A stretch of DNA of 64,000 nucleotides from Ferruginibacter sp. GTDB lineage: Bacteria > Bacteroidota > Bacteroidia > Chitinophagales > Chitinophagaceae. Below are positions 46,245 through 55,425 of this stretch, piece after piece. The stretch covers positions 62,001 through 126,000 of the forward strand of contig JABFQZ010000019.1 of NCBI GenBank assembly GCA_013141435.1, read 5' to 3'. The position numbers and the translations under genes are program-made. The notes beneath the pieces are model-generated. The model was not told where the DNA came from and did not search any database. It worked only from the letters and a program-made list of their open reading frames with translations. Within the stretch, counting starts at the first letter, position 1, and the number at the start of each line of letters is the position of its first letter.

Positions 46245-46345
46245 GGTTTATTGCTGAAGGGCTGCGGGATAGAAGTGGAAATACTTTTTTTGAGGTACGA
46301 AAAAAAAGATTGCAACAAATAGCCCGAGCAAATGCTCGGGCTATT
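46245..46345 (+). repeat. Dispersed intergenic repeat, copy R3, ending in a GC-rich hairpin
   Basis: GGTTTATTGCTGAAGGGCTG, GGGATAGAAGTGGAAATAC, TTTTTTTGAGGTACG, AAAAAAAAGATTGCAACA, then AGCCCGAGC-AAAT-GCTCGGGCT at 46321-46342, a perfect 9-bp stem followed by ATTTGTTTT. The last hairpin may serve as terminator for alaS and, on the other strand, for acs. Confidence 0.75.
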
Positions 46346-46370
46346 TGTTTTGCCCACAACATCTAAAAAA

Positions 46371-48308
46371 CTACACTCTCCCTTTGCTTATTTCGGCAAC
46401 CACATCTGGGTCTAACAAAGTTGTAGTATCGCCAAGGTTTTCAGTTTCGCCTTCGGCAATTTTTCTAAGTATGCGGCGCATAATTTTTCCGCTACGGGTT
46501 TTGGGTAAGCCACTTACAAATTGTATTTTATCGGGCTTGGCTATGGCACCTATTATTTTTGCCACAGTCAAACTTATATCTTGCCTTCGCTGGTTTTCAT
46601 CGCCATGGTGGCCGTTGTATATTACAAATGCATAAATGCCTTGCCCTTTAATGTCGTGCGGATAGCCAACTACAGCACTTTCTACAACACCTGTGTGCAT
46701 ATTAATTGCATTTTCTACTTCGGCTGTACCTATTCTATGACCACTAATATTTAGTACATCATCAACCCTTCCAGTTATTCTAAAGTTGCCTTCTGCATCT
46801 TTCATTGCTCCATCACCTGTAAAATATAAGTTTGGGTAGGTAGCAAAATAATTTAACCTGCATCTTTCATGGTCGCCCCAAGTAGTTCGCAATATGCCTG
46901 GCCATGGGGCTTTTATACAAAGATTTCCTTTTATCATTCCTTGGTCGTCTAACTTAGTTACTTCGTCTCCCTTTTCATCTACAATAATTGGTTGCACACC
47001 AGGCATTGGCAGTGTAGCCCAACTTGGCTTTGAGGGGGTAATACCTGCAAGGTTTGCAATAAGAGTTCCACCTGTTTCTGTCTGCCACCAAGTATCAATA
47101 ATGGGGCATTTATTTTTTCCAATATTATCATCATACCAATGCCATGCTTCTTCATTTATAGGTTCTCCTACTGTACCCAATGTTTTTAAAGATGATAAAT
47201 TTTTCCCCAATAAAGGTGCATCGCCAAAACTCATCAAACTCCTAAGAGCAGTTGGGGCGGTGTATAAAATATTTACTTGGTGCTTATCTATAATATCCCA
47301 AAAGCGCCCAGCATTAGGGAAGGTTGGAATACCCTCAAACATAAGACTAGTACCGCCTGCAGCCAATGGTCCATACACAATATAACTATGCCCGGTTATC
47401 CAACCTATATCTGCTGTGCAAAAATGTATATCGCCTTGGTTGTAATTAAGCATGTTTACAAAAGTGTATGTGGTCCAAATCATATACCCTGCACAAGTAT
47501 GCACTACACCTTTTGGCTTACCCGTACTACCGCTTGTATATAAAATAAAAAGCGGATCTTCTGCATCCATTTCCTCGGCAGGAAAACTTACTACTCCATT
47601 TTTTTCTACTTGGTCTTCGGCAATATCCATTTCATCTTCCCACCACACATCTCTGCCTTTTATCATACTTACAGATGTTCTTGTTCTTGTATAAACAATA
47701 ACTTTTTTTATAGTTTTATTTCCTACAAGTGCATTATCTATTACATCTTTTAAAGGGATAATTTTATCGCCTCTATACGAGCCATCACATGTAATAATAA
47801 AATCAGCATTGGCATCATCCAATCTATCAGCAATACTTTGTGCACTAAAGCCACCAAAAATTACAGAGTGTATAGCACCAATTCTTGCACAGCCAAGCAC
47901 AGCATAGGTTAGCTCAGGCACCATACCCATATATATGCATACCCGATCGCCTTTTTTTACACCATTATTTTTTAGCATTTGGGCTACTTGGCACACACGT
48001 TTGTGAAGGCGTGCATAGGTAACAACTCTTGTTCTTTCATCGGGGTTGTTGGGCTCCCAAATTATTGCTGGCTTATCACTAAATTTTTCTAAATGTCTAT
48101 CAATACAATTTTCAGTAATGTTTAATTTGGCTCCTGCAAACCATTCAACTTTTGGCTCCGAAAAATTCCAATCCAAAACCTTGTCCCACTTTTTGCGCCA
48201 ATAAAAATTATCGGCCACATTTGCCCAAAATGCTTCGGGGTTATCAGTTGCGTTTTTATAATCTTCATAATATTGTTCTAGCGAATTAATTTTGAATGGG
48301 TATGACAT
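46371..48308 (-). CDS. acs: Acetyl-CoA synthetase
   Basis: A 645-residue adenylate-forming enzyme that converts acetate, ATP and CoA to acetyl-CoA. Motifs are FILYTSGSTGKPKGVVHTC (P-loop), TWWQTETGG, FRITGRVDDVLNISGHRIGT (hinge) and the C-terminal LPKTRSGKIMRRILRKI containing the lysine that is acetylated in regulated enzymes. Length and both termini are complete. It is divergent from the orphan zinc-ribbon HTH gene, with 117 bp between, and faces away from the transporter and sensor genes that likely feed and control it. Confidence 0.95.
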   Translation of the reverse strand: MSYPFKINSLEQYYEDYKNATDNPEAFWANVADNFYWRKKWDKVLDWNFSEPKVEWFAGAKLNITENCIDRHLEKFSDKPAIIWEPNNPDERTRVVTYARLHKRVCQVAQMLKNNGVKKGDRVCIYMGMVPELTYAVLGCARIGAIHSVIFGGFSAQSIADRLDDANADFIITCDGSYRGDKIIPLKDVIDNALVGNKTIKKVIVYTRTRTSVSMIKGRDVWWEDEMDIAEDQVEKNGVVSFPAEEMDAEDPLFILYTSGSTGKPKGVVHTCAGYMIWTTYTFVNMLNYNQGDIHFCTADIGWITGHSYIVYGPLAAGGTSLMFEGIPTFPNAGRFWDIIDKHQVNILYTAPTALRSLMSFGDAPLLGKNLSSLKTLGTVGEPINEEAWHWYDDNIGKNKCPIIDTWWQTETGGTLIANLAGITPSKPSWATLPMPGVQPIIVDEKGDEVTKLDDQGMIKGNLCIKAPWPGILRTTWGDHERCRLNYFATYPNLYFTGDGAMKDAEGNFRITGRVDDVLNISGHRIGTAEVENAINMHTGVVESAVVGYPHDIKGQGIYAFVIYNGHHGDENQRRQDISLTVAKIIGAIAKPDKIQFVSGLPKTRSGKIMRRILRKIAEGETENLGDTTTLLDPDVVAEISKGRV

Positions 48309-48368
48309 AGAAAGTCTTTTTTTTATTTAATAAAATTAGGAAACAATTAGATTTAGAAAATAAAAATG

Positions 48369-48403
48369 TTGCTAAATTAGTATAGTTTTGCTAATTAAGT
48401 ATA
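48369..48403. promoter_or_regulatory. Operator-like 16-bp direct repeats between acs and the HTH gene
   Basis: TTGCTAAATTAGTATA (48369-48384) and TTGCTAATTAAGTATA (48388-48403) match at 14 of 16 positions with a 19-bp period. They flank and overlap the TAnnTTTG element at 48383-48390. This looks like a tandem binding site able to act on both divergent genes. Confidence 0.6.
48383..48390 (+). promoter_or_regulatory. Bacteroidota-type -7 element for the orphan HTH gene
   Basis: TAGTTTTG, 35 bp upstream of the ATG at 48426. It overlaps both direct repeats, so binding there would be expected to block transcription. Confidence 0.5.
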
Positions 48404-48425
48404 CTTCATGTGTTATTTTTAAAAA

Positions 48426-48854
48426 ATGAAACCAATTGAATGTCCAAAATGTGCAACAGAAGATCTTATTAAAAGCGGTATTGTTAAAGGAAGACAGCGA
48501 TATCGTTGCAAAAAATGTAATTATTCATTTACAGTATTAAAAGACGGAAAGCAAATTGACCCTTACTATGTAATTAAAGCATTGCAACTTTACATAGAAG
48601 GTGTTACCTATAGAGAAATTGAACGCATACTAGGCATTAGCCATGTATCGGTAATGAATTGGGTAAAAAAATATGGTATTAAAATGCCTGAGCAAAACGA
48701 TTACCATCCAACTTATAAAGTAATAAATCATACAGAATTATTGTCCTTTTTTTCGCATAAAGATTCGTTAAAAAGTGCTGGTTGTATCATTACCGAATTG
48801 GGCGATAAATTTATGCTAATAAAATGGGAAAGATTTAGAAAAAATAGCTTTTAA
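48426..48854 (+). CDS. Orphan IS1/InsA-like zinc-ribbon helix-turn-helix protein
   Basis: A 142-residue DNA-binding protein. A zinc ribbon with C6, C9, C28 and C31 (CPKC and CKKC) is followed by a helix-turn-helix (YREIERILGISHVSVMNWVKKYG, about residues 58-80). This layout matches the InsA/N-terminal part of IS1-family transposases. The catalytic DDE part is absent; instead the last 50 residues (LLSFFSHKDSLKSAGCII to the end) look like a separate small domain. No inverted repeats or target duplications flank it. Context (divergent from acs, head of the porin-transporter-kinase cluster, operator-like repeats upstream) suggests a domesticated transcription regulator; this is inference. Confidence 0.75.
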   Translation: MKPIECPKCATEDLIKSGIVKGRQRYRCKKCNYSFTVLKDGKQIDPYYVIKALQLYIEGVTYREIERILGISHVSVMNWVKKYGIKMPEQNDYHPTYKVINHTELLSFFSHKDSLKSAGCIITELGDKFMLIKWERFRKNSF

Positions 48855-48946
48855 AATATACCCTTAGCAGCAATATAGTTTGATTTATTATTTTGCGAAA
48901 ATATATTTGAAAATTGGTTTTCATTTTTAACCAAAACAAATATGAT

Positions 48947-50218
48947 ATGATAAAAAAAATGATTGTGAGTGTTGTTGTGTTTTTATTTTATTCAGCAACA
49001 ATTTTTGCACAAGAAAAAAAAGCTGCACCAGCTGCACCCATTATTGGTACTACATTGTATGGCTTTATAAGAAATGATATGTTTTACGATAGCCGGCAAA
49101 ATGTTTTTGTAAGAGAAGGCCAATTAAACCTTTACCCAAAAGACATAGATTTGCAAAGTGATGGCTCAGACTACAACAAAAAATCGCAATTAAATATATT
49201 GGGAATACTAACCAGATTGGGTGTTAGAATAACAGGGCCAGATGCCTTTAAAGCAAAAACATCGGCAGTTATTGAAGGTGACTTTTTTGGGCAAGCAGAT
49301 GTTAATATTGGCTTATTTAGGCTAAGGCATGGTTATGTAAAATTAGATTGGGAAAAATCAGCATTAACTCTTGGCCAAACTTGGTATCCAATGTTTATTC
49401 CAGAATGTTTTCCGGGTGTTGTAGGTTTTAATACAGGAATTCCAATTGCTCCTTTTGGATGGGCTGGGCAGGCAAAATTCATGTACAAATTTGATAAAAA
49501 AACATCCTTGTCGCTTACAGCATATAAGCCAAGGGAGTTTGCTGAGGCAAATGTAAACCCAGCAGACATAACAAATGCTGCTTCATTAAATGCTAGCATA
49601 CCGCAATTTAATTTACACCTGCAATATAAAGGAGATAAATTATTGGTAGGTGGGCAAGTAGAATATAATGCTGTAAAGCCTTATGTAAAATATGGCGTAG
49701 CACCACTTATTCGTACAAGCAACGAAACGGTAAGTGCAGTAACAGCTATGGCGTATGCAAAAATTACCACAAAAAAAGTTGGAATAAAAACGCAAATAGT
49801 GTTGGGGCAAAACACCAATCATTGGGTAATGATGGGTGGATACTTGGGCTATAAAGCAACTCCAACTGGTATAGAAACATACAAACCTGCAAAAACTACT
49901 GCCGCATGGATAGACATTTATGGTACAGGTAAAAAAATTGTACCAGGTTTATTTGTAGGATATAGTGTAAACAATGGAGCAAGTGCAGGAGCTACAGCAG
50001 CATACGGCAGAGCCATTGGTGTAAGTGGAAGAGGTATAAAAGATTTATTAAGAGTAGCCCCCCGGTTAGATTTTATTAGTGGTAAATTAAGCTTTAGAAA
50101 TGAATTAGAATTTACACAAGCACAATATGGTACCCGAGCAAATAATGGAAAAGTTGTAGGCGCAACCGATAAAATAACAAATATTCGTTTTACATTTTCA
50201 ACTATTTTTAATTTTTAA
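48947..50218 (+). CDS. Outer-membrane porin-like beta-barrel protein
   Basis: A 423-residue secreted protein with signal peptide MIKKMIVSVVVFLFYSATIF ending at FAQ, a short Ala/Pro-rich linker and alternating amphipathic strands throughout (for example IIGTTLYGFIRNDMFYDSRQ, AVIEGDFFGQ, ALTLGQTWYPMFI), ending in a C-terminal Phe (IRFTFSTIFNF), the outer-membrane insertion signal. It resembles the phosphate-selective/carboxylate porin-like proteins found with MFS genes in Bacteroidota. Upstream codons to 48914 (TTG) are not used. It is followed 17 bp later by the MFS gene, suggesting joint uptake of one substrate across both membranes. Confidence 0.8.
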   Translation: MIKKMIVSVVVFLFYSATIFAQEKKAAPAAPIIGTTLYGFIRNDMFYDSRQNVFVREGQLNLYPKDIDLQSDGSDYNKKSQLNILGILTRLGVRITGPDAFKAKTSAVIEGDFFGQADVNIGLFRLRHGYVKLDWEKSALTLGQTWYPMFIPECFPGVVGFNTGIPIAPFGWAGQAKFMYKFDKKTSLSLTAYKPREFAEANVNPADITNAASLNASIPQFNLHLQYKGDKLLVGGQVEYNAVKPYVKYGVAPLIRTSNETVSAVTAMAYAKITTKKVGIKTQIVLGQNTNHWVMMGGYLGYKATPTGIETYKPAKTTAAWIDIYGTGKKIVPGLFVGYSVNNGASAGATAAYGRAIGVSGRGIKDLLRVAPRLDFISGKLSFRNELEFTQAQYGTRANNGKVVGATDKITNIRFTFSTIFNF

Positions 50219-50235
50219 AACAACAGTTAATAATT

Positions 50236-51810
50236 ATGAGCAACATAAAATCAGAAAAAGGGATAGCTGGTGTAATAGCTGCATCTTCTTTAGGTACGTT
50301 AATTGAATGGTACGATTTTTACATTTTCGGAAGTTTGGCTACAATAATTGCAACAAAATTTTTTCCATCAGGAAACCCAACGGCAGCACTACTTTCTACA
50401 CTGGCTACTTTTGCAGCAGGGTTTGTAGTACGTCCATTTGGCGCATTGTTTTTTGGGAGGTTGGGCGATATCATTGGAAGGAAATATACATTTTTGGTAA
50501 CCTTGGTTTTAATGGGTGTTTCCACATTTTTAATTGGATGTATTCCGTCTTACGAAACCATTGGTTTTGCTGCTCCCATTTTGGTGTTGTTATTAAGATT
50601 GTTGCAAGGCCTTGCATTGGGTGGTGAATATGGTGGTGCAGCTACTTATGTTGCAGAACATTCGCCTGAACACAAGAGAGGTTTTTGGACAAGTTGGATA
50701 CAAACAACTGCAACAGTAGGTTTGTTTTTATCATTGCTTGTAATCGTTACAACCAAAGGTGCTATGAGCAAAGAAGCATTTGCAGATTGGGGTTGGAGAG
50801 TTCCATTTTGGATATCAATTGTAATGGTAGGTATTTCTATTGTCATAAGAATGAAGATGAAGGAATCTCCATTATTTCAAAAAGCAAAAGATGAAGGGAA
50901 AACCAGTAAAAATCCATTAAAAGAAAGTTTTGGAAACAAACTCAATTTCAAATTTGTATTGCTAGCATTATTTGGTGCTACCATGGGGCAAGGTGTAGTT
51001 TGGTACACAGGTCAATTTTATGCACTCAATTTTATTCAAAATACATTGAGTGTAGATATTACACAAGCAAGCAACATTTTAATGATTGCACTAGCATTGG
51101 GTACACCTTTCTTTATTGTGTTTGGCGCACTTTCCGACAAAATTGGAAGAAAATGGATAATGCTTTTTGGTATGCTCATTGCACTACTAAGTTATAGAAC
51201 CATCTATTCAAAAATGTACGATAGTGGCAGTGTAAAAGCTAAAACAGAAATAGTTGGTAATACAAAAGTAACTACTACAACAGTAGCAGATACAAAAAAT
51301 ATTGGCGATAGCATTCGCACAACTATTACCAATAAAGAATATGCAGATGGCACAAACTATGTAGAAACAAAAAAAGTAAATATACATGCTGATATTGCAA
51401 AAGCAGACGAGAAAAAAGATACTAAAATTGATAAAGTTACCAATCTTGATAACGGATCTTTTTGGAGTTTGGTTTGGTTGGTATTTATTCAAGTAATATT
51501 TGTAACCATGGTGTATGGCCCTATTGCCGCCTTCTTGGTAGAAATGTTCCCAATAAGAATAAGGTATACATCTATGAGTTTACCTTATCACATTGGTAAC
51601 GGAATATTTGGTGGCTTACTGCCTACCATTGCATTGTTTTTAGCTACCAAGGCAGGTCAAGCAAATGAGGCTGCTACAAAAGCAAGTACGGCTTTACCTT
51701 ACGATAAACCATATTTAGAAGGCTTGTGGTATCCTATTATAATTGCAGGTGTTTGTTTTGTAATAGGTGCTTTGTATATAAGTAATAATGATAGAAACGT
51801 AAACGATTAA
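50236..51810 (+). CDS. MHS-family major facilitator with a long periplasmic loop
   Basis: A 524-residue transporter resembling the metabolite:H+ symporter family (ProP, ShiA, KgtP, dicarboxylate or acetate/propionate carriers). Twelve membrane segments are visible. The MFS signature is GRLGDIIGRK between segments 2 and 3, with a second copy DKIGRK after segment 8; ALGGEYGGAATYVAEH follows segment 4. Between segments 9 and 10 is a hydrophilic, Thr/Lys/Asp-rich insert of about 75-80 residues (329-407), predicted periplasmic and not usual for this family (typical length about 430-450). Organic-acid uptake is inferred from acs and the sensor nearby. Confidence 0.85.
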   Translation: MSNIKSEKGIAGVIAASSLGTLIEWYDFYIFGSLATIIATKFFPSGNPTAALLSTLATFAAGFVVRPFGALFFGRLGDIIGRKYTFLVTLVLMGVSTFLIGCIPSYETIGFAAPILVLLLRLLQGLALGGEYGGAATYVAEHSPEHKRGFWTSWIQTTATVGLFLSLLVIVTTKGAMSKEAFADWGWRVPFWISIVMVGISIVIRMKMKESPLFQKAKDEGKTSKNPLKESFGNKLNFKFVLLALFGATMGQGVVWYTGQFYALNFIQNTLSVDITQASNILMIALALGTPFFIVFGALSDKIGRKWIMLFGMLIALLSYRTIYSKMYDSGSVKAKTEIVGNTKVTTTTVADTKNIGDSIRTTITNKEYADGTNYVETKKVNIHADIAKADEKKDTKIDKVTNLDNGSFWSLVWLVFIQVIFVTMVYGPIAAFLVEMFPIRIRYTSMSLPYHIGNGIFGGLLPTIALFLATKAGQANEAATKASTALPYDKPYLEGLWYPIIIAGVCFVIGALYISNNDRNVND

Positions 51811-51833
51811 TTATAACTATTAAAAATATTTTT

Positions 51834-52058
51834 ATGAATACAATAAAAAAATTAGCTGGATTATTGTGGATTGCAATTGGCTTGTATGCTGGGTATATAC
51901 TCATTGTAACACAGGCTATACCTAAGTTTAGTAGCCCCAAGCCCGAAGATTTAATTCCTGCAATTATTTATGCATTTGTACTTACGCCTATTATTGTTGG
52001 CGGCTTAGTTACATTTGGTATTTACGCATGGCAAAATCAATACGATACTACCGAATAG
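51834..52058 (+). CDS. DUF6814-like small membrane protein
   Basis: A 74-residue protein with two transmembrane helices (LAGLLWIAIGLYAGYILIV and IPAIIYAFVLTPIIVGGLVTFGIYAW), joined by a short charged loop (PKFSSPKPED) and ending QNQYDTTE. It resembles the small DUF6814 proteins that accompany MFS carriers in Bacteroidota. Role unknown; a stabilising or regulatory transporter subunit is a reasonable guess. It follows the MFS gene by 23 bp and precedes a terminator. Confidence 0.65.
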   Translation: MNTIKKLAGLLWIAIGLYAGYILIVTQAIPKFSSPKPEDLIPAIIYAFVLTPIIVGGLVTFGIYAWQNQYDTTE

Positions 52059-52089
52059 TATTTATTAAATAATTTTTACCCCCCATTTA

Positions 52090-52136
52090 GGATAATACAG
52101 TTAACTTATGATGTTTATTGTATTATCCTTTTTATT
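52090..52136 (+). terminator. Terminator between the transporter genes and the sensor genes
   Basis: Stem GGATAATACA/TGTATTATCC (perfect 10 bp) with an 18-nt loop, followed by TTTTTATTTTTA. A longer frame starting at 52108 would begin inside this loop, so the next gene starts at 52144. Confidence 0.75.
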
Positions 52137-52143
52137 TTTACTA

Positions 52144-52350
52144 ATGCAAAATAAACTAAAACAACAAAAACTAATTTTTCTAAGTATATTATTACTTGTA
52201 TTATTTTCATACCCGTTTATTTCTATAGCTAATAAAAATAAGCTCTTATTTGGCTTTCCCATATTATTTTTATACATATTTATTCTTTGGCTTGTTGCAA
52301 TACTAATTTCCTATTTATTAATGGAAACAAAACAAAAAAATAATGAGTAA
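52144..52350 (+). CDS. Two-helix membrane protein upstream of the sensor kinase
   Basis: A 68-residue protein with a basic N terminus (MQNKLKQQK) and two hydrophobic helices (LIFLSILLLVLFSYPFISIA and FGFPILFLYIFILWLVAILI). It overlaps the start of the sensor gene by 8 bp, so the two are translationally coupled. The size and layout recall the small companion subunits of sodium:solute symporters (DUF3311/YhdT type), which would fit the SLC5 domain next door. That is inference from position and topology only. Confidence 0.6.
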   Translation: MQNKLKQQKLIFLSILLLVLFSYPFISIANKNKLLFGFPILFLYIFILWLVAILISYLLMETKQKNNE

Positions 52351-55048
52351 TTTAATTGCCATTTTTACAGCTTTATTTTATTTAGCAGTGCTTTTTGCTG
52401 TAGCTTATTTTGCAGAGTATCGATTAAAAAAAGGAAAGAGCATAATAAATAATGGATATGTTTATGCATTATCGCTTGCAGTATATTGTACTGCATGGAC
52501 GTATTATGGAAGCGTGGGCAGGGCTTCCACAAATGGGATAGAGTTTTTAGCAATCTATCTGGGACCAACAATTGCTGCGGTTTTATTTTGGCCAGTGTTA
52601 CGCAAAATCATACGAATTTGTAAAACACAAAGTATCAATAGTATTGCCGATTTGATTTCTACACGTTATGGTAAAAACTTTTCTGTAGCTGTTATTGTTA
52701 CTATTTTATGTGTACTAGGTATTATCCCTTATATAGCCCTACAATTAAAAGCAATATCTAACAGTATTCATATACTTACAAATAATAGTTTGCAACATTC
52801 ATCATTGAGTAATTTTTGGAATGATGATACTTTTTATATTGCACTAATTCTTTCCATTTTCATAATCTTATTTGGAACAAGATCTATTGATGCATCAGAA
52901 AAACACGAAGGTTTGGTGGCAGCTATAGCTTTTGAATCTATTATAAAATTGGTTGCATTTTTTGCTGTGGGCATTTTTATTGTGTATGCTGTTTTTAATG
53001 GCTTTGGAGATATTTTTTCAAAAGCTTTTGAAAATGAGTCTTTAAAAAACTTATTTCAGTTAGGCACCAAAACCTCTTACGCAACTTGGCTTGGTTTAAT
53101 GATGGCTTCTATGCTTGCTGTAATATTTTTGCCTCGTCAGTTTCAAGTAAGTGTTGTAGAAAATATGCAAGAAAAGCATTTAAAAAAAGCAGCTTGGCTT
53201 TTTCCTTTATACCTAGTTGTCATAAATATTTTTGTATTACCCATCGCCATAGCTGGAAAATTAATTTTTTCAAATACGAATATAGATGCTGATACCTATG
53301 TGTTAGCTTTACCACTTTATTTTAATCAAATTGGGTTAAGCCTTTTTGTATTTATAGGTGGTTTCTCTGCTGCTACAAGTATGATTATTGTAGAAACAAT
53401 AGCATTAAGTACTATGTTTAGCAACAATATTGCAACTCCCCTTTTTTTATCTGCAAAAAAATTCAAACCTGCAGCTGATGGGAAATTCAGTCGTTCTATT
53501 CTAAATATGCGAAGAATAAGTATTGTTGTTTTAATTGCACTTGCTTATATCTACGATAAAACGATTGCAGAGAATGTTTCATTGGTCTCTATGGGGTTAG
53601 TTTCTTTTGTAGCTGTTGCACAATTTGCACCTGCTGCTATTGGTGGTATTTATTGGAAATCAGCATCAAAAAATGCAGCCATTGCTTCTATTTGTGTAGG
53701 GTTTGCAATTTGGTTTTTTACCCTTGTGTTGCCCTCCTTGGTAAGCGCACATATTTTAAATGAAAATATAATGACAAATGGCCTGCTTGGTTTAAGTTGG
53801 TTAAAACCCTTTTCCTTATTTGGTTTAGAGGGTATGGATTCCATAACACATTCTTTTTTTTGGACAATGTTTTTTAATGTAATAGTATTTGTAACTGTAT
53901 CGTTAAACAGTAAAAAAACAGCTGAGGAAATTTACCAAGGTGAAATTTTTGTGGATATTTTTAAACACTCAACAGTTGGTACAGAAAATGTAGTGTGGAA
54001 GGGTACAGCTTATCTACCAGATATCAATTCGTTGTTACAAAATTTCCTAGGAAAGGAAAGGTCGCAAAATTTAGTAGCAAGTTATGCTATAAGGAATAAA
54101 ATTTCTTTAGAAACTAAAAGAGCAGACCCAAGATTAGTTGTGTTTGCAGAACGAATTCTTGCTGGAGTAATAGGCTCCGCATCGGCAAGTATAATGGTAA
54201 GAAGTGTAACGAAAGAAGAAGTGTTAAAAGTAGATGAAGTACTCAAGATTTTGCGTGAGTCGCAACAAATGATTGAACTAAATAAAGAGCTTAAAAAGAA
54301 ATCTGCTGAATTACAAAAAGCTACACAACAATTAACTACAGCTAACGAATTATTAAAGGAAATGGATCTGATGAAAGATGAATTTCTTTATACTGTTACG
54401 CATGAAATACGAACACCTATAACATCAATACGTGCAATGACAGAAATTGTACACGACAATACAGATATGCCAGAAGCACAACGGCAACTTTTTTTAGGAA
54501 ACGTTATAAAAGAAACAGAAAGATTGAGCCATTTAATAATGCAGGTTTTAAATTTAGAACGTTTTGAAAGTGGCCAACAACAACTTTCTTTCAAAGAAGT
54601 GCAACTTAATTTGCTAATTGCAGATGCGATAGAATCGCTACAAGCCTTAGCAGATGAAAAAAATATTGCTATACAAAAAACCATACAAGACTCGATGTTT
54701 TTAGTACGATGCGATGAAGTATTGATGCAACAAGTATTGTATAATTTAATTTCAAATGCCATAAAATATGTGGATAACAATACGGGAAAAATTAGAGTAT
54801 CTGTGCACACAAATTATGATGAAATTCAAATATGGGTTGAAGATAACGGGCCAGGTATTTTGCCTGAATTGCATGAATTGATTTTCGATAAATTTTTTCA
54901 GGCAAAAAATCAAACTTTGAAAAAACCCGAAGGCAGTGGATTGGGTTTAGCAATTTGTAAAAAAATAATAGAAATGCATGGAGGAAGAATATGGGTAGAA
55001 AGCGATGGTAATAACGGTTCAAAGTTTATCTTTACACTTCCACAATAA
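52343..55048 (+). CDS. SLC5 symporter / histidine kinase fusion sensor (CbrA/CrbS-like)
   Basis: A 901-residue protein. Residues 1 to about 530 form an SLC5 (sodium:solute symporter) domain of about 13 membrane segments, including CTAWTYYGSVGRA, LPRQFQVSVVENMQEKH and GGFSAATSMIIVETIALS. About 545-640 looks like a STAC domain (AERILAGVIGSASASIMVRSV). A coiled coil leads to HisKA (phosphorylated His687 in HEIRTPITSI), and the ATPase has N box QVLYNLISNAIKYV, DNGPG, FDKFFQ and GSGLGLAI. No PAS or receiver domain is present. CbrA and CrbS of proteobacteria have this architecture; CrbS controls acs. The receiver gene follows by 8 bp. Confidence 0.9.
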   Translation: MSNLIAIFTALFYLAVLFAVAYFAEYRLKKGKSIINNGYVYALSLAVYCTAWTYYGSVGRASTNGIEFLAIYLGPTIAAVLFWPVLRKIIRICKTQSINSIADLISTRYGKNFSVAVIVTILCVLGIIPYIALQLKAISNSIHILTNNSLQHSSLSNFWNDDTFYIALILSIFIILFGTRSIDASEKHEGLVAAIAFESIIKLVAFFAVGIFIVYAVFNGFGDIFSKAFENESLKNLFQLGTKTSYATWLGLMMASMLAVIFLPRQFQVSVVENMQEKHLKKAAWLFPLYLVVINIFVLPIAIAGKLIFSNTNIDADTYVLALPLYFNQIGLSLFVFIGGFSAATSMIIVETIALSTMFSNNIATPLFLSAKKFKPAADGKFSRSILNMRRISIVVLIALAYIYDKTIAENVSLVSMGLVSFVAVAQFAPAAIGGIYWKSASKNAAIASICVGFAIWFFTLVLPSLVSAHILNENIMTNGLLGLSWLKPFSLFGLEGMDSITHSFFWTMFFNVIVFVTVSLNSKKTAEEIYQGEIFVDIFKHSTVGTENVVWKGTAYLPDINSLLQNFLGKERSQNLVASYAIRNKISLETKRADPRLVVFAERILAGVIGSASASIMVRSVTKEEVLKVDEVLKILRESQQMIELNKELKKKSAELQKATQQLTTANELLKEMDLMKDEFLYTVTHEIRTPITSIRAMTEIVHDNTDMPEAQRQLFLGNVIKETERLSHLIMQVLNLERFESGQQQLSFKEVQLNLLIADAIESLQALADEKNIAIQKTIQDSMFLVRCDEVLMQQVLYNLISNAIKYVDNNTGKIRVSVHTNYDEIQIWVEDNGPGILPELHELIFDKFFQAKNQTLKKPEGSGLGLAICKKIIEMHGGRIWVESDGNNGSKFIFTLPQ

Positions 55049-55056
55049 ATAATAGA

Positions 55057-55425
55057 ATGAGCAGAATTTATAAAATTTTAGTAGTTGATGATGATCCCTA
55101 TATTTTAATGTCGTTAGAGTTTTTGATGAAAAAAAATGGCTATGAAGTTATGGTTGCTCGAAATGGAAATGAAGCAATGGAAATGCTAAATTTGTCGGTG
55201 CCAGATATTGTACTTTTGGATATTATGATGCCAGATGTAAATGGATATGACATTTGTAAATATATAAAAAGCAACAAAAAACTAAAAGAAATTAAAGTGA
55301 TTTTTATGAGTGCGAAAACCAGAGACTCTGATATAAAAAAAGGTTACGACCTTGGCGCAGCCTTATATATAAAAAAACCATTTAGTACCAGAGAGTTGGT
55401 AAGTAACATCAAAAGCTTATTATAA
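55057..55425 (+). CDS. Stand-alone response-regulator receiver domain
   Basis: A 122-residue CheY-like protein: acidic triad DDD at 11-13, phosphoacceptor D55 (LLDIMMPD), S85 and K107 (IKKPFS). It ends right after helix 5, so there is no DNA-binding or enzymatic output. It follows the SLC5 kinase by 8 bp and is surely its partner. Proteobacterial CrbR/CbrB equivalents carry output domains; the lack of one here means the signal must pass to another protein by interaction. The gene is followed closely by the convergent TlpA-like gene. Confidence 0.93.
   Translation: MSRIYKILVVDDDPYILMSLEFLMKKNGYEVMVARNGNEAMEMLNLSVPDIVLLDIMMPDVNGYDICKYIKSNKKLKEIKVIFMSAKTRDSDIKKGYDLGAALYIKKPFSTRELVSNIKSLL

Follow-up and report, generated by a model that had tools for sequence, protein, structure and literature searches.

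An IS1-related helix-turn-helix protein as candidate DNA-binding output of an SLC5 kinase–receiver module next to acs in Bacteroidota

The acs locus and its gene set

We analysed a 64,000-nucleotide (nt) stretch of a Ferruginibacter sp. genome (contig JABFQZ010000019.1, positions 62,001 to 126,000; hereafter the window), in which the acetate–CoA ligase gene acs is divergent from a seven-gene run encoding a helix-turn-helix (HTH) protein, a porin, an MHS-type carrier, a DUF6814 protein, a protein of 80 amino acids (aa), a histidine kinase and a receiver. The acs gene (46371..48308, minus strand, 645 aa) passed the equivalog model TIGR02188 with 893 bits against a cut-off of 725. All genes of the divergent run lie on the plus strand. 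The HTH gene (48426..48854, 142 aa) encodes a zinc ribbon and HTH of the IS1/InsA type and no DDE catalytic half, and it is followed by a putative outer-membrane porin with a signal-peptide-like start (48947..50218; the open reading frame is listed from 48914, with its ATG at 48947), an MHS-type metabolite:H+ symporter (50236..51810; 372 bits with TIGR00883, below the cut-off of 443), a small DUF6814 protein (51834..52058; 91 bits, cut-off 25), the hydrophobic 80-aa protein (52108..52350), a histidine kinase of 901 aa (52343..55048) and a receiver-only response regulator of 122 aa (55057..55425). A preliminary description of this DNA had given the order from acs through the receiver, and every gene was found at the position it named. 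Pfam and NCBIfam searches gave no family match for the porin and the 80-aa protein.

The kinase combines an SLC5 part, a four-helix (STAC-like) segment, HisKA and HATPase_c. The SLC5 part matched PDB entry 10ed over residues 8–467 in a phmmer search (E 2.5e-72), and Foldseek matched it to SGLT, NIS and CHT1. HisKA and HATPase_c were found by domain search, and Pfam gave no Response_reg inside the protein. Four helices predicted at residues 558–622 of the structural model occupy the position expected of STAC, and a search of this putative STAC segment against the sequences of solved chains gave no match. The earlier assignment as an SLC5/STAC/HisKA kinase is thus borne out for SLC5 by sequence and fold and for HisKA by domain search, while STAC is placed by position and by its four predicted helices. 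The phospho-acceptor residues named earlier, His687 of the kinase and Asp55 of the receiver, are both present. The receiver, which had been called output-less, consists of Response_reg at residues 7–118 of 122, and judged by length its homologues agree, as all 58 that were readable among 65 measure 122–142 aa.

The gene of the 80-aa protein shares 8 nt with the kinase gene. In Pseudomonas, according to the accessible parts of two sources, the gene of the 58-aa, two-helix protein CbrX overlaps cbrA and is translationally coupled to it (PMC6591292), and CbrX and the SLC5 domain form a complex (PMC13022988). By analogy with this arrangement, the two-helix 80-aa protein is probably a sensor subunit of the kinase, its likeness to CbrX being one of position. 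Positional counterparts of this small hydrophobic protein are also present before the kinase in other loci.

Scanning bacterial and archaeal genomes with the HTH protein gave at least 554 confirmed stretches, the best 80 of which were analysed. Carriers include Chitinophagaceae, Hymenobacter, Spirosoma, Winogradskyella, Nonlabens and Moheibacter, and one locus (L047) is labelled Phycisphaerales. Within the available sequence around these 80 HTH genes, the SLC5 kinase was found in 67 loci, the receiver in 64, the MHS carrier in 65 and an acs of at least 50% identity in 71 (some acs-like gene in 76), which provides the synteny whose presence in other genomes the preliminary description had left to be checked. 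In eight of the 13 kinase-less loci, the sequence past the HTH gene is shorter than 3 kb. Six of the 13 (L057, L064, L070, L081, L088 and L094) were checked genome-wide, and each of their genomes carried the kinase elsewhere; of the other seven, L085 has enough room and six lie at contig ends. Instead of the MHS carrier, eight loci (L056, L057, L064, L068, L069, L072, L079 and L083) encode a small protein together with one resembling sodium:solute symporters, identified in L056 as DUF4212 and SSF by Pfam. Counterparts of the porin, by homology or by position, occur elsewhere too. We conclude that these genes form a conserved module whose transporter varies.

The cluster is flanked by alaS on one side and by a TlpA-like gene followed by gatB on the other, as read from their translations. 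Between the convergent ends of alaS and acs lies a perfect 17-nt inverted repeat with a 2-nt loop (46314–46349 of the window), a likely terminator. For the MHS carrier (50236–51810), the family model matched in two stretches, the best covering residues 20–333, and a loop may be inserted thereafter.

The helix-turn-helix protein and its putative operator

The HTH protein passed the IS1/IS1595 zinc-binding and HTH models, and it covered positions 1–111 of the 199 positions of the IS1 transposase model with 78 bits, below the cut-off of 100. Its zinc ribbon is formed by Cys6, Cys9, Cys28 and Cys31, its HTH by residues 46–83, and a conserved C-terminal b-a-b-b domain (β-α-β-β) by residues 93–136; the AlphaFold2 model (mean predicted local distance difference test score 83) shows a zinc hairpin, the HTH and the b-a-b-b domain. 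A protein search gave 2480 proteins at E ≤ 0.001, and nearly all of the 120 listed are 139–143 aa long; among the locus sequences the length is 138–143 aa in 79 of 81. The C-terminal motif TELGDKxMxIKWERF was strictly kept in 77 of these 81 sequences, the other four comprising three conservative changes and one sequence cut by a contig end, and in 208 of 238 database proteins listed. In an alignment of 45 members, hand-picked for diversity, 43 columns were invariant, including the four cysteines and, at the C-terminus, E124, G126, D127, K128, M130, I132, W134, E135 and R136.

A profile comparison with IS1 transposases, for which the IS1 profile was built from only four sequences, aligned the whole HTH protein with 98% probability. 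In this alignment T103-E104-L105 falls on the first catalytic motif, D-E-M, whose aspartate is missing from the HTH protein, and the C-terminal domain would accordingly be what remains of the first strands of the IS1 catalytic fold. In a midpoint-rooted tree the regulators nest among IS1 transposases, with support of 0.77–0.83 for the enclosing groups, 0.99 for the regulators together with the paralogue L244, and 0.28 for the particular sister. Judged by model match, profile alignment and tree placement, the HTH protein is a relative of IS1 transposases without the catalytic part, as had been claimed. As a separate observation, genome G555 contains ten IS1-model matches in open frames of 130–161 aa, and the four loci read (L245–L248) adjoin large proteins that look secreted by eye; this suggests a wider family of transposase-derived local regulators.

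Two putative operator units, TTGCTAAATTAGTATA (48369..48384, plus strand) and TTGCTAATTAAGTATA (48388..48403, plus strand), are repeated with a period of 19 in the spacer between acs and the HTH gene. When up to 4 mismatches in 22 positions are allowed, the double motif TGCTAA-N4-GTATA-N4-TGCTAA-N4-GTATA precedes the HTH gene in 79 of 81 loci; shuffling each upstream region once gave 7–12. Searching the genus with at most one mismatch over 20 specified bases, we found the double site in 10 of 93 genomes, all of them carrying the HTH gene, and in none of the 82 genomes without it; in G025, the eleventh genome with the HTH gene, the site contains Ns, as seen in L029. The acs gene itself is present in 84 of the 93 genomes. 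The best unit before acs had no mismatch in all 10 HTH-positive genomes read and at least two in all 19 HTH-negative genomes read, a contrast that is partly the same observation as the double site, because acs and HTH share one spacer in the genus.

Loci in which the two genes lie apart separate these observations. In L074, L081 and L088, which are similar to each other in sequence, acs starts 4.8, 1.7 and 1.2 kb from the HTH gene and has its own exact unit 59 nt upstream of its start. L250, apparently on the same contig as L074, has sites at acs, at the HTH gene and beside the receiver in front of acs2, and acs and HTH each have a separate site in L044 and L045. The site in front of the porin is weaker than those at the HTH gene and acs, and no excess of units was seen in the regions before the MHS, kinase and receiver genes. 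Taken together, these results argue for a conserved cis-element before the HTH gene and acs whose occurrence follows that of the HTH gene. In several HTH-less genomes of the genus (e.g. L138, L143, L146, L151 and L162), another conserved stretch, approximately ATAAATATATTAATTTGG, was noticed by eye before acs; it may be a separate control site. For Flavobacteriaceae, PMC9723704 reports that acsA is preceded by a conserved, structured 5′ element that is as yet unexplained.

A single inverted operator-like site with one mismatch lies directly after the HTH stop (48855..48877, minus strand), about 70 nt before the porin ATG. Within 70 nt after the HTH stop, an inverted unit was present in 29 of 79 loci at no more than one mismatch and in 60 at no more than two, compared with 0 and 8 in shuffled sequences and 0 and 11 in the direct orientation; in the 29 loci it lies 4–13 nt from the stop. 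The HTH gene is therefore bracketed by an inverted pair, like the gene of an insertion sequence (IS) by its ends. Exact units also flank the gene of L244, a 35%-identical relative whose 9.4 kb of sequence include no gene of the module (0.1 expected in that locus by shuffling). Other relatives differ from it: L243 (34%) has a one-mismatch unit upstream, and among the paralogues of G555 the four that were read showed no comparable pair. L255, an IS1-family element with one annotated transposase coding sequence, lies on a Tenacibaculum plasmid and has the terminal repeats GGCATTGCTAATTTAATATAG and GGCATTGCTAATTCAATAAAG; one end contains an exact unit with a score of 20.0, against a maximum of 14.4 in 200 shuffles of this element. 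In the IS1-like element of L205, the repeats are 34 nt long and start with GGCATTGTTAATTAGTTATAG; a Methylobacter element has GGCATTGTTAATTTAGT, and cyanobacterial ends differ. In E. coli, InsA of IS1 binds both inverted repeats and represses a promoter overlapping the left inverted repeat (IRL), according to the part of PMC12428005 available. From these comparisons, the module seems to have kept an IS1-type pair of protein and site.

The position of the units was compared with candidate promoters. In Flavobacterium psychrophilum, the −7 box TAnnTTTG is placed at −12 to −5 (PMC9723704, available in part). The candidate −7 box of acs, TAATTTTA (48331..48338, minus strand; consensus TAnnTTTG), lies 30 bp beyond the proximal unit. 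A box of this kind with at most one mismatch was found 29–31 bp past the proximal unit towards acs in 30 of 32 loci with divergent acs (31 and the window), against a mean of 1.2 and a maximum of 5 of 32 in 500 shuffles; the 30 loci are not independent because they are related. This spacing stays fixed while the distance from operator to ATG varies from 58 to 87. The box reads TACTTTTA in 12 and TAACTATG in 8 loci and matches the consensus perfectly in 1 of 30, and a TTTG −33 element 17–23 bp further up was present in only 3 of 30. With the −7 box at −12 to −5, the units at acs would cover roughly −77 to −43, the usual region for activators. For the HTH gene, the candidate −7 box TAGTTTTG (48383..48390, plus strand) lies between, and overlaps, both units, and such a box at no more than one mismatch was found between the units in 78 of 80 loci, although the operator itself dictates four of its six specified positions. 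Before the porin, −7-like boxes form a loose cluster at 38–40 (20 counts in 53 loci). We infer from this geometry activation of acs and repression of the HTH protein's own gene.

Co-occurrence, proposed control and its alternatives

Of the 93 genomes of the genus, 12 carry the receiver, and the HTH gene was detected in 11 of these and in no other; in the twelfth receiver genome, G035, the contig begins inside the kinase gene. In a phylum sample of 395 genomes, the kinase occurred in 41 and the HTH gene in 31, with both in 28, HTH only in 3, kinase only in 13 and neither in 351 (Fisher 1e-29, uncorrected for relatedness). Of the three genomes counted as HTH-only, G305 encodes an IS1-like transposase that keeps the catalytic DE motif and lies outside the HTH family; the other two are G279 and G403. 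The HTH gene and the kinase/receiver pair thus co-occur near-exclusively in the genus and among the phylum-sample genomes of the same class. In G033, we found acs, an MHS gene and an HTH remnant with in-frame stops. Its operator is still in place but carries two mismatches, and there was no match to the receiver or the SLC5 kinase; such joint decay of HTH and site along with absence of kinase and receiver is expected if the parts work together.

In several kinase loci of other classes (L195, L196, L198, L200, L201 and L202), a protein of about 315–350 aa is encoded after the receiver, and Pfam found a PAS domain in one of three scanned (L202). By eye this protein resembles a kinase core whose phospho-His position is not His. 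In L197 and L199, a protein of about 718 aa follows the receiver; its middle is weakly kinase-like, and Pfam found an RNase_T exonuclease domain in L199. ArsR-like HTH genes lie near the kinase in L207 (genome G036) and L200 (genome G422), where the IS1-like HTH gene is absent, and are possible alternative regulators.

We regard it as rather probable that the module is a Bacteroidota counterpart of the acetate control of the CrbS/CrbR type, whose DNA-binding output is a separate, transposase-derived protein. In this scheme, a short-chain carboxylate would be sensed by the CbrX-like subunit and the SLC5 kinase, leading to phosphorylation of the lone receiver. As a truncated IS1 transposase that keeps the end-binding half, the HTH protein would bind the TTGCTAA-N5-TATA units, which may themselves descend from transposon ends. 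Regulation of the module by the HTH protein through the tandem sites is very likely on the sequence comparisons above. At acs, where the units lie about 43–77 bp upstream of the presumed start site of a promoter mostly without a −33 element, the HTH protein most likely activates, a step we hold with good though lesser confidence; at its own gene, where the units cover the likely promoter, it most likely represses, as InsA does. Lastly, the receiver would switch the HTH protein through the conserved C-terminal domain, which is the weakest step: direct contact between the two is a tentative proposal. More tentative still is a fuller version, in which the phosphorylated lone receiver docks on the b-a-b-b domain, a remnant of the first strands of the IS1 RNase H-like fold, and turns the protein into an activator at fossil transposon-end operators. 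As the HTH gene still stands between an inverted pair of ends, the DNA-binding domain and its sites would have been acquired jointly, to spread across the class as one regulatory pair.

Several observations count against all or part of this proposal. Of the 41 phylum-sample genomes with the kinase, 13 have no HTH gene, and these belong without exception to other classes; within the same order, G036 has a kinase and a receiver but lacks the HTH gene. The HTH protein is therefore not required for the kinase–receiver pair as such. Conversely, G279 and G403 carry the HTH gene without a match to the SLC5 part of the kinase, and no receiver–HTH fusion was found among the 120 listed of 193 longer homologues. 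The precedent of InsA is one of repression, not activation. Units of at most one mismatch were found before acs2 in only 5 of 35 loci and before a non-divergent acs in only 4 of 39 (shuffles gave none in either case), of 47 matches in the window's own genome 30 were readable and none of these was a further site of similar strength, and at the porin the spacing to the −7-like box is looser than at acs and different from it. As to the origin of the sites, the unit was exact in one and above the 95% shuffle level in two of nine IS1 elements examined, a shuffle of another element (L258) reached 20.7, on par with the 20.0 of L255, and 19 more distant Bacteroidota IS1 loci had no detectable terminal repeat. 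The earlier proposal that the HTH protein may supply transcriptional control is thus partly supported: the conserved tandem site before HTH and acs speaks for control at the DNA level, and the pairing of HTH and kinase is near-exclusive in the genus and among same-class genomes of the sample but not fixed.

One alternative is that the HTH protein is a local regulator independent of kinase and receiver, with the receiver acting elsewhere, for example on an unlinked partner or as a phosphate sink. The 13 kinase genomes of other classes, several with the PAS-like or kinase-like protein after the receiver, as well as G036, G279, G403 and the missing fusion all fit such independence. The near-exclusive co-occurrence within genus and class argues against it, as does the kinase found elsewhere in all six genomes checked whose HTH locus lacks it; moreover, the C-terminal motif, strict in 77 of 81 sequences, is altered in the HTH proteins of G279 and G403. 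We consider this alternative unlikely, though it is the strongest of those weighed here. Somewhat less likely is a pure InsA-like repressor of acs, the porin and its own gene, which the phosphorylated receiver or a ligand would remove. Repression by InsA through the inverted repeats (PMC12428005, in the part available) and the overlap of operator and likely HTH promoter speak for it. At acs, however, the operator lies upstream of the promoter at a fixed 29–31 bp in 30 of 32 loci, with a TTTG −33 element in only 3 of 30, and this spacing speaks against a pure repressor because a repressor needs none.

Two further explanations concern the gene and the motif themselves. The motif could be a conserved promoter and not a regulator site, given that the operator spacer is readable as the −7 box of the HTH gene; yet it stands in both orientations relative to genes, lies outside the acs −7 box and after the HTH stop, occurs around the 35%-identical relative and in an IS1 terminal repeat, and is absent before acs in the 19 HTH-negative genomes read, which makes this explanation very improbable. 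Finally, the HTH gene might be an ordinary decaying IS remnant that sits in the cluster by chance, since several sources name the family IS1 family transposase or transposase-like and end-like sites bracket the gene. With a length of 138–143 aa in 79 of 81 sequences, the C-terminal motif kept in 77 of 81, and operator and synteny conserved, we give this next to no credence. On balance, control of acs by the HTH protein in connection with the kinase and receiver remains the reading we prefer.

Comparison with known systems

By sequence, many Bacteroidota appear to carry a cluster for uptake and activation of acetate-like acids that is switched by a small transposase descendant, using the end of a jumping gene as its control site. 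If true, this would be a clear example from bacteria of a transposase fragment taken over along with its end sequence to serve as regulator and operator, across many Bacteroidota genera. It would also offer an explanation of how SLC5-kinase systems with output-less receivers reach DNA, and it would provide a testable regulator and site for the use of acetate-like acids in Bacteroidota. Among the entries listed by literature searches of capped length, which did not cover most subscription papers, none dealt with the pairing of an IS1-type HTH protein with an SLC5 kinase and receiver.

As described in the parts of PMC5715377 and PMC9100948 available, CrbS/CrbR control acs and actP in response to acetate in Pseudomonas and Vibrio. 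Our module resembles this system in its SLC5-type sensor kinase, in acs as target or neighbour, in a motif of its own before acs and in the sodium:solute symporter of several Bacteroidota loci. In contrast to CrbS, which is a hybrid kinase, the kinase here has no receiver of its own. CrbR has a LuxR-type DNA-binding output, which the regulator of the module lacks, and in place of the imperfect inverted repeat ACTU of CrbS/CrbR there is a tandem TTGCTAA-N5-TATA motif. The module would work like CrbS/CrbR and yet is not a member, since its kinase is non-hybrid and its regulator output-less. The overlap of a small hydrophobic protein gene with the start of an SLC5 kinase gene is shared with CbrX-CbrA/CbrB (PMC6591292, PMC13022988); CbrB, described in the accessible text as a sigma-54 transcription factor (PMC13022988), differs in that no such domain is present here.

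With IS1 InsA and InsAB′, the HTH protein shares a zinc ribbon and an HTH in the same order and a profile match along its length, and the operator shares its unit with the terminal repeat of a related element and, as inverted end-like units, flanks the HTH gene. It differs from an IS1 transposase in lacking the catalytic half and the first catalytic aspartate, in its constant neighbours and in an extra conserved C-terminal motif, and the repeats lack the GGCA tip in the loci read by eye. The receiver resembles single-domain response regulators, such as VemR and HrpG, which act via partner proteins according to the sources available in part; unlike in those systems, the candidate partner is a transposase-derived DNA-binding protein from the same cluster. 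What is new here is thus probably a variant of SLC5-kinase control in which the output is supplied in trans by a domesticated IS1 protein.

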